This document shows, in pieces, positions 4,008-32,711 of a DNA stretch of 33,960 nt; the first letter of the stretch is position 1, and each line of letters starts with the position of its first letter. Source of the stretch: Patescibacteria group bacterium (GTDB taxonomy: Bacteria > Patescibacteriota > Microgenomatia > UBA1406 > GWC2-37-13); NCBI GenBank assembly GCA_026416375.1, contig JAOAFI010000036.1:1-33960 (forward strand). The letters run 5' to 3'. Both the position numbers and the translations under genes were made by a program. The notes beneath the pieces are model-generated. The model was not told where the DNA came from, did no database searches, and saw only the letters and a list, made by a program, of their open reading frames with translations.

Positions 4008-4757
4008 TTAATTTTTGATATTTTTATAATATTCTCCTCCCATTTGATAATCAAAAATTGGTTTTTTAATTGGTCCAAAAAATAATTGATATAAAATTGC
4101 TTTAATTGATTTATAAAGGCTTTTTATAATTCCTTCCTTTTCAAATCGTCGAGTAGAAACATAAAGAATAGGATAAGAAAAGACTTTAAATTTAGCTTTA
4201 TTTTTAACTAATCTTTGAATTAATTCAAAATCTTCTCCAAAAATTATTTGTTCATCAAATCCTTTAACTTTATCAAAAAATGTTTTTTTTATTATTATAC
4301 AAGGGCCATTAGCAGAAGGTTTTATTTTTTCAAATAAACTCATAGCTAAATTCATCAAAAAAAATATAATTTTTCCTTTTATTCCTTTTTTTGCTCTATT
4401 CCAGACAGTTAAAGCATCAAGATTATATTTTTGAATTTTTTTATTTATTTCTTCTAAAAAATTTTTTTCTCCAATTTCAACATCAGCATCAAAAAAAATT
4501 AAAAAATCTTTTTTAGCATTTTTAGCGCCAAAATTTCTGGCTTGGGCGACGTTTTTATTTTTTCTTTGAAGAAATAAAAGAGGAATTTGTTTTTTGAAAT
4601 TTAAAGCAATTTCTTTTGTTTTGTCTTTTGAAAAACTATCAACAATAATTACTTGATAATTTTTGTAATTTTGATTTTTAATTGAAGAGAGAAGTATTGA
4701 TAGATTTTTTTCTTCATTTAAAGTTGGGATAACTATTGAAAAAAATATTTTTTTCAT
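4008..4757 (-). CDS. Glycosyltransferase family 2
   Basis: From ATG 4757 the protein is 249 residues and begins MKKIFFSIVIPTLNEEKNL, the standard GT2 (GT-A) N-terminus. Donor-binding VDSFSKDKT, the DxD-type metal site FFDADVEIG (about 90-98) and the acidic GEDFELIQR motif (about 170) are present. The enzyme should transfer a sugar from a nucleotide donor, probably to a surface glycan or lipid carrier. An upstream in-frame ATG would add 27 residues, but those are only a translation of the tRNA-Ser gene, so the start at 4757 is chosen. That start is just two bases past the tRNA 3' end, with no room for a Shine-Dalgarno. Nudix and DUF998-like genes follow 15 bases apart. Confidence 0.9.
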   Translation of the reverse strand: MKKIFFSIVIPTLNEEKNLSILLSSIKNQNYKNYQVIIVDSFSKDKTKEIALNFKKQIPLLFLQRKNKNVAQARNFGAKNAKKDFLIFFDADVEIGEKNFLEEINKKIQKYNLDALTVWNRAKKGIKGKIIFFLMNLAMSLFEKIKPSANGPCIIIKKTFFDKVKGFDEQIIFGEDFELIQRLVKNKAKFKVFSYPILYVSTRRFEKEGIIKSLYKSIKAILYQLFFGPIKKPIFDYQMGGEYYKNIKN

Positions 4758-4759
4758 AG

Positions 4760-4844
4760 CGGAGGGTAGAGGATTTGAACCTCTGTAGGGATTGCTCCCT
4801 CGAGTTTTCGAAACTCGTGCAATTGGCCTCTCTGCCAACCCTCC
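4760..4844 (-). tRNA. tRNA-Ser (CGA)
   Basis: Reading from 4844 to 4760, acceptor arms GGAGGGT and ACCCTCC pair, discriminator is G, and the anticodon stem CGAGT/ACTCG encloses TTCGAAA, giving CGA for UCG codons. A long variable arm marks it as type II. CCA is not encoded. A GT2 gene begins two bases after the 3' end, so tRNA processing would release a nearly leaderless mRNA. Confidence 0.93.
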
Positions 4845-10593: not shown

Positions 10594-10631
10594 AGATGAG
10601 TTTTATTTATAAAAAAAGTATAATATTTTTG

Positions 10632-29017: not shown

Positions 29018-30388
29018 TTATATTACTTTAATTCCAAGTTCTCTTAATTTTTCTTTATCAACAGGAGAAGGAGCATTCATAATTGCTGTTTTTCCGCCTG
29101 AGGTCATTGGCATAGCAATTACTTCTCTAACATTTTTTTCATTCATTATCGATGCAATTAATCTGTCAATTCCAAGAGCAATTCCGCCATGAGGAGGAGC
29201 TCCAAATCCTAAAGCTTCAATCATATGGCCAAATTTTAATTTTATTTCTTCTTCTTTTAGTCCCATAATTTCAAAAACTGCTTTTAAAGCTTGGGGTTGA
29301 TGATTTCTTATTGATCCGCCGCCAACCTCATATCCATTGCAGACTAAATCGTATTGAGTAGTTAAGATATTTTCAATATTTTTTTTATTTAAAAGATCAT
29401 TCATAAATTCAGGTTTGGGAGCAGAAAAAGGATTATGAGTAAAAGTCCAGCTTCCTTCTTCAGTTTTTTCAAAAAAAGGAAAATCAATTACCCAAGCAAA
29501 AGCTTGAATATTTTTTTTCTTTTCTTCATCTGTTCGCAAATCAAATTTATCAGCGCCAAATTTTTCTAAAGCTTGTTTATAGGTAAAAACAGGAAAAGGC
29601 TTTTCTTTTATTGGGATTTTAAGTTTTTGATAAACCTCAATAATCATTGTTTCAATAAGATTCATAATATCTTCTTTTTGAACAAAACTTGCCTCAATAT
29701 CAAGCTGGGTAAATTCGCCGTAAGCCCGATCAGCCCGCGGGTCTTCATCACGAAAACACCTGGCAATCTGAAAATATCTTTCAATGCCAGCTACCATCAA
29801 AAGCTGTTTGTACTGCTGGGGCGATTGGGGCAAAGCATAAAATTTGCCTGGCTGAAGGCGGGAAGGAACAATAAAATCTCTTGCTCCTTCAGGAGTTGTT
29901 TCTGATAAAATCGGCGTCTCAATTTCCAGAAAATCATTTTTGAAAAAAAATTGTCTGATTGTGTCGATAAATTTGCTTCTGAAGCTTAAATTTTTATAAA
30001 GTCTTGGACGCCGGATATCAAGATAGCGGTATTTAAGTCTTACTTCTTCATCTATTTCATAGCCGTCAGTATCAACCTGAAGAGGAAGGGGAGCGGTTTT
30101 ATTTAATATTTTTAATTCTTTGGCTTCAAGCTCAATTGAGCCGGTTAGAATGTTTGGATTAATTAGTTTTTCTGGTCTTTTTTTGACAATTCCTTTAATG
30201 TAAATAACATCTTCTTGGTTGATTTTTTGAAAATCTTCTGTTGTTCCAACAACTTGAATGATGTCAGTTCTGTCGCGAAGATCAATAAAAACAACACTTT
30301 TGTGTTTTCTTATTGACTGGGCCCAGCCGTAAAGCTCAACTTCCTGTCCGATTTTATTAATTGTTTGGAAAACAGACAATTTTTTCAT
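29018..30388 (-). CDS. aspS: Aspartyl-tRNA synthetase without GAD insertion
   Basis: The 456-residue protein has an OB-fold anticodon domain (VELYGWAQSIRKHKSVVFIDLRDR) and class II motifs: FLEIETPIL, FRDEDPRADRAYGEFTQLDIE and GGIALGIDRLIASIM. Bacterial-type features such as PQSPQQYKQLLMVAG and GGGSIRNH are clear. Bacterial AspRS is normally about 590 residues because of a GAD domain inserted between motifs 2 and 3; here DKFDLRTDEE passes within about ten residues to FAWVIDFPFFE, so that domain is missing. His in RKHKSVVF aligns with the residue linked to non-discriminating AspRS, hinting at tRNA-dependent Asn synthesis; this is tentative. The -10 box predicts a two-base leader. Confidence 0.95.
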   Translation of the reverse strand: MKKLSVFQTINKIGQEVELYGWAQSIRKHKSVVFIDLRDRTDIIQVVGTTEDFQKINQEDVIYIKGIVKKRPEKLINPNILTGSIELEAKELKILNKTAPLPLQVDTDGYEIDEEVRLKYRYLDIRRPRLYKNLSFRSKFIDTIRQFFFKNDFLEIETPILSETTPEGARDFIVPSRLQPGKFYALPQSPQQYKQLLMVAGIERYFQIARCFRDEDPRADRAYGEFTQLDIEASFVQKEDIMNLIETMIIEVYQKLKIPIKEKPFPVFTYKQALEKFGADKFDLRTDEEKKKNIQAFAWVIDFPFFEKTEEGSWTFTHNPFSAPKPEFMNDLLNKKNIENILTTQYDLVCNGYEVGGGSIRNHQPQALKAVFEIMGLKEEEIKLKFGHMIEALGFGAPPHGGIALGIDRLIASIMNEKNVREVIAMPMTSGGKTAIMNAPSPVDKEKLRELGIKVI

Positions 30389-30396
30389 ATTAAATT

Positions 30397-30402
30397 ATTA
30401 TA
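30397..30402 (-). promoter_or_regulatory. -10 box of aspS-dacA
   Basis: TATAAT on the minus strand predicts a start at 30390, two bases before the aspS ATG at 30388, hence an almost leaderless mRNA. Confidence 0.55.
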
Positions 30403-30475
30403 CTTTTTTCTCTTAAAAAAACAATTATTTTTTGGTATTATGTTTTTTAATATGATAAAAAACAGCATTAAAAAA

Positions 30476-30592
30476 CATTTTCACCTTTACCTTATTGCCA
30501 CCTTTAGGTGGGATAAAGGTTAAGGGTGAAGTGTTAAATAGTTAATTAAAATTAAAAATTCACATTTTCACCCTCCAAAAGGAGGTTTTTTT
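30476..30592 (+). promoter_or_regulatory. Structured leader with sequestered Shine-Dalgarno
   Basis: 30480-30530 folds into a long imperfect hairpin with three main helices (TTCACC/GGTGAA region, TTACC-like with GGTTAA region, CCACC/GGTGG) and a TTTA loop. A second hairpin, CCTCC (30572-30576) with GGAGG (30581-30585) around AAAA, is followed by seven T, so it resembles both a short terminator and a lock over the Shine-Dalgarno AAAGGAGGT. CCACCTTT (30498-30505) could pair with AAAGGAGG instead, with one mismatch. The 10-mer CATTTTCACC occurs at 30476 and 30563. TATGAT at 30451-30456 is a possible -10. Confidence 0.6.
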
Positions 30593-30928
30593 ATGGGAAA
30601 AGAAATACGCGGAGATATTTGTTTAAAAAATAACTGTAGTGCTTATTGTGGAGATATAAGAATAGAATTATCCTTAGATGGGGTAAGAAATTTAAGAAAA
30701 TTATGAACACTAATTACTGGATTATTTCATATAAATGATAGAAGAAATATACCTAGAGGTAGAGATAAACGCGCTTTTTATGATATGGAAGGTTCATGTG
30801 GTGCTTTAACAAACGATTTATGTAGCATTTATGAAAATAGACCTTTATCATGTAGACAATTTGAACCTGGTAGTTTGGAGTGTTTAAGAGTAAGAAAAGA
30901 AAATGGATTAGGTGATTTAAAAATTTAA
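30593..30928 (+). pseudogene. YkgJ-like CxxCxxCC metal-binding protein, interrupted by one in-frame TGA
   Basis: The frame from ATG 30593 to TAA 30926-30928 is intact for 111 codons apart from TGA at codon 38 (30704-30706). The protein has the zinc/iron-chelating YkgJ pattern: Cys10, Cys15 and Cys19 in ICLKNNCSAYCGD, then after the TGA, GSCGALTNDLCSIYENRPLSCRQFEPGSLEC with Cys69, 77, 87 and 97. All expected Cys and the YExRPxxCR core are kept and no frameshift is present, so the break is either recent or read through. The start has a perfect AAAGGAGGT seven bases upstream, unlike every other gene here, and a structured leader. TGA is a genuine stop elsewhere in the window. Family call is good; status as dead or recoded is open. 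Confidence 0.75.
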
Positions 30929-30942
30929 CTATATATTGTAAC

Positions 30943-30996
30943 TTTCGCTAGTCAATTAGCGGAAAATTAGTTATTTGCGCTTGACAAATAGCGGAA
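30943..30996. terminator. Two tandem hairpins between YkgJ-like gene and recJ
   Basis: TTTCGCTA (30943-30950) faces TAGCGGAAA (30957-30965), and a near copy follows, TTGCGCT facing TAGCGGAA (ending 30996). The two units share TAGCGGAA and a GACAA/GTCAA loop. They lie between convergent genes and may terminate both, though no strong T-run follows. Confidence 0.5.
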
Positions 30997-31004
30997 TTTA
31001 GATT

Positions 31005-32711
31005 TTATTTTATAATCTTTATCGTTCTTCCTCTTATTTTTTCTTTATCGCCCCATCTGTCAATTTCAATGGTGTAGACAATTTTTATTTTTTGATTGCG
31101 GGAAAGGGAGGAAAAAAGAGGAGATTGGTTAAAAGCAATAAGTTCAAGACAATTTGAAATTTGAAATTTTAAATTTGAAGAAAGGTTTTCATCTGTTACC
31201 CAGATTTTTAAATGCTCGTTTTTTTTGCCAAAGATTTTAGCGTCAAAAATTACAGCTTCGCTGTAAAAAACAGGTTGAGGGTTGCCTATTCCAAAAGGAG
31301 CAATAGACTCTATTTTTTTTGCTAAATCAAGATTTATTTTTGAGATTGGGATTTTTAAATCAGCAGTTATTTTTTTCTCTAAAATTTTTTCATTAATTTC
31401 CTCATTAGCTTTTTTTTGAGCTATTTCAATAAATTTTTTTAGCATTTTTTCCTCAATCGTAAATCCAGATGCCTGCTCATGACCGCCCACATCAACTAAA
31501 AAATCTTTTAAATTTCTTAAAAAATTAGTGATATGAAAATCTTTTATAGATCTTCCTGATCCTTTGTAGTGGCCGTCAGTTTTTGTCATTACAATTGTTG
31601 GCCGATAAAACTCTTCAGTGATTTTTGAAGCAATAAGACCAATTATTCCCTCATGCCAATTATCAGAGACTAAAATTATGATTTTTGAAATTTGAGATTT
31701 GAAATTTGAAATTTTTAATCTAGCTTCATCTACTGATTTTTCAACCAAATCCTGGCGTTCTCTATTTATTTTTCCAAGAGATAAAGCAATGTTTTTTGCT
31801 CTTTCCTCTTTTTTTGTGCATAAAAGTCTTAAAGCATCAAGAGCTGATTTTAGTCTTCCTGAGGCGTTAATTCTTGGCGCAATCATAAAGCCAATTTCAT
31901 AAGGAGTGATTTTTTTTCCTTCAATTCTTGCTTCTTTTAAAATATGGATGATGCCAAATCTTTTTATTTTTGGAAAAACCTCAAGTCCATATTTGACAAG
32001 AGAGCGGGAAGCGCCGGTTAAAGGTACTAAATCAGCAATTGTTCCAATTGAGGCCAAAGACATATAATCATTTTGAAAATTATTCTCTAACAGCTGAAAA
32101 TTTGAATTTTTAGATTTAAAATTTTTAAAAATTTCTTTAGCAAAAAAATAAGCCACTCCGCTTCCTGAAAGAGATGAAATATGAAAAATAGCTTCTGCTT
32201 TTGGAGTTTTTTCTGCCTTTAAATGGTGATCAGTAATGATGATTTTTATGTCTTTTTTTTGAGCGTATTCAGTCTCTTTTATTTTTGTTATACCATGGTC
32301 AACAGTTATGATTAACGATGGATTAAATTGTGAGATTACATTGTCAATTCCTTTAATTGAAAGTCCATACCCCTCTTTTATTCGGTCTGGCACATAAGGC
32401 ATAACATTAAAACCCAAAAGATACAAGGTTTCCCATAAAATTGCGCCTCCTGTGATTCCATCTGCGTCATAGTCAGTGTAGACAACAACTTTTTCATTTT
32501 TATTTTTTATTTCTTTTAAAATTTTTATAACTGTTTCAAACTCTTTTTTGTAATTCTTATCAAAATCAAAAAGAGAGATTTTTAAAGGATGAGGCGGATT
32601 TAAAAAATTTTTTAGATCAGTGATTTTTCTTTTTTCAAGAATAATTTTGATAATTTCATCATTAGTGATTTTTTCATCAGATTTTATTTCTTTAAAAAAA
32701 TTAATAAGCAT
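31005..32711 (-). CDS. recJ: Single-stranded-DNA exonuclease RecJ
   Basis: The 568-residue protein has the DHH phosphoesterase motifs: YTDYDADGITGG (about 77-88), TVDHGI, ITDHHLKAEKTP, GSGVAYFFAKE, and the DHHA1-type WHEGIIGLIASKITEEF with VGGHEQASGF. RecJ degrades single-stranded DNA 5' to 3' in recombination and mismatch repair. Motif II reads VDHG where VDNG is common. Three 7-bp arrays lie inside the gene and encode SNLKFQISN, ISNFKSQISK and SKNSNFQLLEN in loops, without breaking the frame. Length is normal. A TATAAT box on the minus strand (32726-32721) predicts a three-base leader before ATG 32711. It converges on the YkgJ-like gene. Confidence 0.95.
   Translation of the reverse strand: MLINFFKEIKSDEKITNDEIIKIILEKRKITDLKNFLNPPHPLKISLFDFDKNYKKEFETVIKILKEIKNKNEKVVVYTDYDADGITGGAILWETLYLLGFNVMPYVPDRIKEGYGLSIKGIDNVISQFNPSLIITVDHGITKIKETEYAQKKDIKIIITDHHLKAEKTPKAEAIFHISSLSGSGVAYFFAKEIFKNFKSKNSNFQLLENNFQNDYMSLASIGTIADLVPLTGASRSLVKYGLEVFPKIKRFGIIHILKEARIEGKKITPYEIGFMIAPRINASGRLKSALDALRLLCTKKEERAKNIALSLGKINRERQDLVEKSVDEARLKISNFKSQISKIIILVSDNWHEGIIGLIASKITEEFYRPTIVMTKTDGHYKGSGRSIKDFHITNFLRNLKDFLVDVGGHEQASGFTIEEKMLKKFIEIAQKKANEEINEKILEKKITADLKIPISKINLDLAKKIESIAPFGIGNPQPVFYSEAVIFDAKIFGKKNEHLKIWVTDENLSSNLKFQISNCLELIAFNQSPLFSSLSRNQKIKIVYTIEIDRWGDKEKIRGRTIKIIK
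31152..31179. repeat. Heptamer array 1 in recJ (4 units)
   Basis: Units are ATTTGAA, ATTTGAA, ATTTTAA and ATTTGAA. The block 31151-31180 matches 351-380 at 29 of 30 bases. It encodes SNLKFQISN. Confidence 0.85.
31683..31717. repeat. Heptamer array 2 in recJ (5 units)
   Basis: Units are TTTTGAA, ATTTGAG, ATTTGAA, ATTTGAA and ATTTTTA. They encode LKISNFKSQISK on the coding strand. Confidence 0.8.
32100..32127. repeat. Heptamer array 3 in recJ (4 degenerate units)
   Basis: Units are ATTTGAA, TTTTTAG, ATTTAAA and ATTTTTA. They encode KNFKSKNSNFQ. More diverged than the other two arrays. Confidence 0.55.

Follow-up and report, generated by a model that had tools for sequence, protein, structure and literature searches.

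In Patescibacteria, an in-frame TGA can be a stop codon that has broken a gene, a stop that is read through, or a sense codon carried over from a lineage with another genetic code. The question is raised by a reading frame in contig JAOAFI010000036.1 of the Patescibacteria group bacterium assembly GCA_026416375.1. We refer to this contig (C11 in our numbering) as the window, meaning the whole stretch of 33,960 nucleotides that was analyzed; it belongs to a draft genome of 764 kb in 63 contigs. The frame lies between aspS and a recJ-like gene and resembles metal-binding proteins of the YkgJ family, except that a single TGA interrupts it at codon 38. We present here an analysis of this frame, of its relatives, and of the chromosomal interval that contains it. 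The features are listed in Table 1.

Table 1. Features of the aspS-recJ interval and of related leaders (window coordinates unless a locus is named)
Feature	Position	Strand	Remark
aspS	29018..30388	-	One border of the interval
Strong leader hairpin	30480..30529	+	3' arm can pair instead with 30561-30574 (antiterminator-like)
Terminator-like hairpin, CCTCC-AAAA-GGAGG plus T7	30572..30592	+	3' arm is the apparent Shine-Dalgarno (30580-30585)
Interrupted YkgJ-like (PF03692) reading frame	30593..30928	+	112 codons including the TAA end
TAT (Tyr18)	30644..30646	+	First Cys of the CC pair in the family
In-frame TGA, codon 38	30704..30706	+	Column is Gly in relatives
Tail with two 27-base imperfect repeats (78% alike)	30938..30996		Also beside recJ in congener G010
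recJ-like gene	31005..32711	-	Other border of the interval
Switch-capable leader, window	30480-30592		Switch-capable leaders stand before different small genes
Switch-capable leader, L039	6780-6940	-	As above
Switch-capable leader, L064	560-680	+	As above
Switch-capable leader, L062	90-240	-	As above

The interrupted frame and its protein family

The extent of the frame, the lone TGA, and the absence of a frameshift were borne out when all 112 codons were read: the TGA is the sole internal stop, and the frame ends with TAA. The chance of 110 codons with no more than one stop, computed at the composition of the window, is about 4e-4. With odds this low and a Pfam match besides, the frame cannot be put down to chance and is real. 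With residue 38 filled as Gly, the product matches PF03692 (CxxCxxCC, a putative zinc- or iron-chelating domain) at 28.5 bits (E value, 2.6e-6), above the curated cut-off of 23 bits, which upholds the initial annotation of a YkgJ-like metal-binding gene. A six-frame search of the genome, with TGA counted as a stop, also recovered the PF03692 match in frame. No solved structure was matched when structures were searched by sequence for the window protein.

The product is similar in size to YkgJ family members and has the same C..C...C and CSIYxxRPxxCR spacing. The C-terminal core (C...CxIYxxRPxxC) is present; across the aligned homologues, C69, C77, R83-P84, and C87 are invariant or nearly so, and the YExRPxxCR motif noted initially is found at Y80-R88. 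The window gene differs from the family in that its frame is not uninterrupted under the code of its host, which has RF2, and in its N-terminal CC pair, which is kept in 13 of 13 aligned homologues and reads Tyr18-Cys19 (TAT TGT) here. The initial description of all seven expected cysteines as retained is accurate as a count, but one member of the family's CC pair is not among them. The gene also falls in a subfamily with an extra C-terminal Cys, common to two relatives (G032 and G278) and to a relic in congener G003.

Codon 38 in the relatives, and a relic in the aspS-recJ interval

Within the taxonomic family of the host, the best intact relative is G032 (L002). Its alignment with the window protein is free of gaps between Cys10 and the codon-38 column, at which G032 has Gly followed by Thr; Thr also follows the TGA in the window. 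Gly-Thr is likewise found at this column in G278 (L057). A profile made from three sequences (the window, G032, and G278) was run over 83 genomes of the order and matched congener G003 at C10:22761-22868, flanked by aspS and recJ just as the frame in the window is. The G003 relic (L064 1062-1250) gives NLCVMNNCHACCEETRLRLNFVEAAALRNLGTTLDNLIPGSSDCLRIRQERGLGPLINSKP when read in frame and has a TAA directly upstream. Its first part aligns to window residues 8-44 and its last part to the C-terminal PGSLECLRVRKENGLGDLK of the window protein, and the 47 codons between the two matching parts are deleted in frame. At the column of the window's TGA the relic has GGG, and at that of Tyr18 it has TGC (Cys).

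Both parts of the relic scored higher than all of 5000 shuffles (64 versus a maximum of 47, and 68 versus a maximum of 44). In the C-terminal part, the window and G003 differ at 6, 4, and 15 sites in codon positions 1, 2, and 3, respectively, a third-position excess that marks past coding constraint. The putative orthology of this short relic rests on similarity and position, not on a tree. The homologue alignment thus places the stop of the window gene at a column that is sense in G032, G278, and G003, and the residue guessed initially, a Gly before Thr, is the one found in all three. The upstream TAA and the 47-codon deletion mean that a relative at the same place carries further disabling changes, an outcome that the initial annotation itself had named as refuting its proposal.

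No intact copy of the YkgJ-like gene was found in the 19 congeners searched, and the gene is patchy in the genus. No relic was found in the aspS-recJ spot of G010, where the best local score (27) was within the range of shuffles. On these comparisons, the simplest history would be that the common ancestor already carried the gene at this spot and that separate changes have since disrupted it in each of the two species; a foreign donor would not be needed.

Readings of the TGA

A Gly column is equally expected of a gene written in code 25 (TGA as Gly) and of a GGN-to-TGA nonsense mutation, and other evidence decides between them. The host genome encodes RF2 (prfB, 416 bits). As had been observed initially, the window's own genes stop at TGA: it ends 3 of the 28, and two of these ends overlap the next start codon. 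The glycines of the interrupted gene are written with 11 GGN codons and one TGA. This single TGA in 12 Gly positions stands against code-25 hosts, in which TGA is described, qualitatively, as a highly used Gly codon (PMC10746230). The window gene is like the code-25 genes of Absconditabacteria and Gracilibacteria in that its TGA stands at a Gly of its relatives, and it differs from them in containing only one TGA, in belonging to a host that encodes RF2, and in having, in the same interval, a relative that uses the standard code and carries GGG.

Transfer from a lineage in which TGA codes for Gly, or for Trp under code 4, had been put forward initially as the most testable idea and would fit the Gly column, in the case of code 25, and the patchy distribution of the gene. 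It would also fit the AGA-dominated Arg codons, which are compatible with code-25 and code-4 donors and with the host alike. The Trp reading is out because the relatives (G032, G278, and G003) carry Gly at the column. Codon choice in the gene is ordinary for the host, with half of the host's 111-codon stretches fitting the host no better, and alien codon usage was not seen; the host codon table is slightly blurred by one gene out of frame (at 10630) and one off its start codon (4008-4760), which leaves this conclusion unaffected. Six peptide patterns, searched in 84,980 species genomes, returned no close relative and only four distant or partial ones. A close code-25 copy should have been detectable, because four of the six patterns are free of Gly. 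The nearest relatives found use the standard code, and no code-25 genome was recognized in the phylum sample. Among the matches listed for UvrB in 145 members of the phylum, an in-frame TGA was absent, and a TGA-bearing EF-Tu/IF-2 motif was matched in 0 of 380 genomes. Neither phages nor IMG/VR yielded a relative of the window gene, and plasmids gave only partial, distant matches, mostly to ordinary YkgJ proteins; a phage or plasmid carrier was rejected on these results. A code-25 or code-4 donor was rejected on the GGG that the G003 relic carries in the aspS-recJ interval, the Gly column, the density of TGA, the presence of RF2, and the lack of a close relative in the collections searched, and we regard such an origin as extremely improbable.

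Readthrough of the TGA in the host, giving a full-length protein, would account for the preserved downstream frame and cysteine core, and apparently retained bacterial genes with in-frame stops have been described (PMC7918605). It is opposed by the RF2 of the host, by the lack of a recoding structure after the TGA (z, -0.4), by the absence of this TGA from the G003 copy, G032, and G278, and by the additional loss of a ligand Cys, and we consider it very unlikely. An error of sequencing or assembly, or a minority strain variant, would mean that the population in nature still has an unbroken gene. The draft state of the genome (63 contigs) leaves room for this, as a single base change suffices and the rest of the frame is open, but the TGA at codon 38 and the Tyr at codon 18, two separate anomalies, together with an independently broken copy in G003, favor real decay. 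We consider such an error or variant unlikely, though less so than readthrough.

We find it highly probable that the frame is a decaying accessory YkgJ-like gene, resident between aspS and recJ, in which a nonsense mutation changed GGN to TGA at codon 38. Nonsense mutation was among the explanations offered initially, and it is supported by the stop itself, the Gly of the relatives, the broken G003 relic at the same place, and the RF2 of the host. The ancestral Gly codon, most simply GGA, would have become TGA through one base change, and one metal-ligand cysteine would probably have been lost too (Cys18 to Tyr). RF2 should terminate translation at codon 38, which would leave a 37-residue peptide without the second half of the cysteine cluster. 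We infer that the TGA is genuine, that the host makes the full-length protein in small amounts at most, and that the gene is no longer under selection. Weighing against this reading, the frame stays open for 73 more codons past the TGA and its CSIYxxRPxxC core is perfect, so that any loss must be recent. The window gene shares with ordinary nonsense-mutation pseudogenes a single premature stop, an otherwise open frame, and a disrupted counterpart at the same position in a sister species; nothing essential differs, and the latter half of its frame has been preserved to an unusual degree. An apparent case of gene transfer between genetic codes is thereby removed, as the code-25-like TGA is explained by the broken copy in a standard-code sister species.

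The leader and the aspS-recJ interval

The AGGAGG upstream of the frame had been described as the only strong Shine-Dalgarno in the window. Among the window genes examined, no other start has a GGAGG in the 20 bases that precede it, but this one forms the 3' arm of a terminator-like hairpin, CCTCCAAAAGGAGG-TTTTTTT. Folding of the leader far exceeds that of shuffles (z, -5.4), and nothing in Rfam came near the gathering score in the leader. Of 96 genomes, 3 contain the motif AAAAGGAGGTTTTT-N(0-3)-ATG; in two cases, the window and G010, it lies at the aspS-recJ spot, where it precedes different genes.

The leaders in the window, G010, G003, and G001 can form a hairpin and a terminator or, from the same segments, an antiterminator in the nascent RNA. 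In three of these leaders, antiterminator pairing outscored that of dinucleotide shuffles (p values of 0.014, 0.30, 0.024, and 0.002 for the four); the combined value of 1.5e-4 is to be read in light of the segments having been picked after the folds were seen and of the genomes being related. The predicted attenuator-like switching in these four leaders is a lead, not a demonstration.

The aspS-recJ interval (window 30389-31004; L039 and L062-L075) is hypervariable. It contains almost nothing in the congeners G017 and G018, and elsewhere its genes are unrelated: they encode long proteins in G009, G019, G004, G002, and G012 (in G012 at a contig edge), and the match of the G009 protein to NUDIX falls just short of the cut-off. 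Shorter proteins are found in G007, G013, and G015, and small genes in G001, G003, G005, G010, and G016. In G003 (L064 687-935) and G001 (L062 2-109), the interval includes a small gene rich in cysteine that matches nothing in Pfam, and the two copies are weakly similar.

The repeat tail (..AGCGGAA..CGCTTGACA..) adjoins recJ in the window (30938-31004) and in G010 (L039 5970-6035). A similar sequence makes up the promoter region directly ahead of an ATPase-like gene in G012 and G005 (L040 ~2015-2075; L041 ~1770-1810), and the tail may be the remnant of a lost gene's promoter.

We tentatively suggest, as a possibility that we rate below even, that aspS-recJ is a cargo spot at which interchangeable small accessory genes would sit behind a promoter and an attenuator leader, with the terminator arm doubling as a ribosome-binding site in the window and in G010. 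The interrupted YkgJ-like gene would then be cargo going out of use. A hypervariable spot with attenuator-like leaders may merit a study of its own.

Elsewhere in the window, the listed open reading frame 4008-4838, within 4008-4844 on the minus strand, extends back through a minus-strand tRNA-Ser gene (4759-4844). Because of this overlap, translation probably begins further along, near MKKIFFSIVIP.
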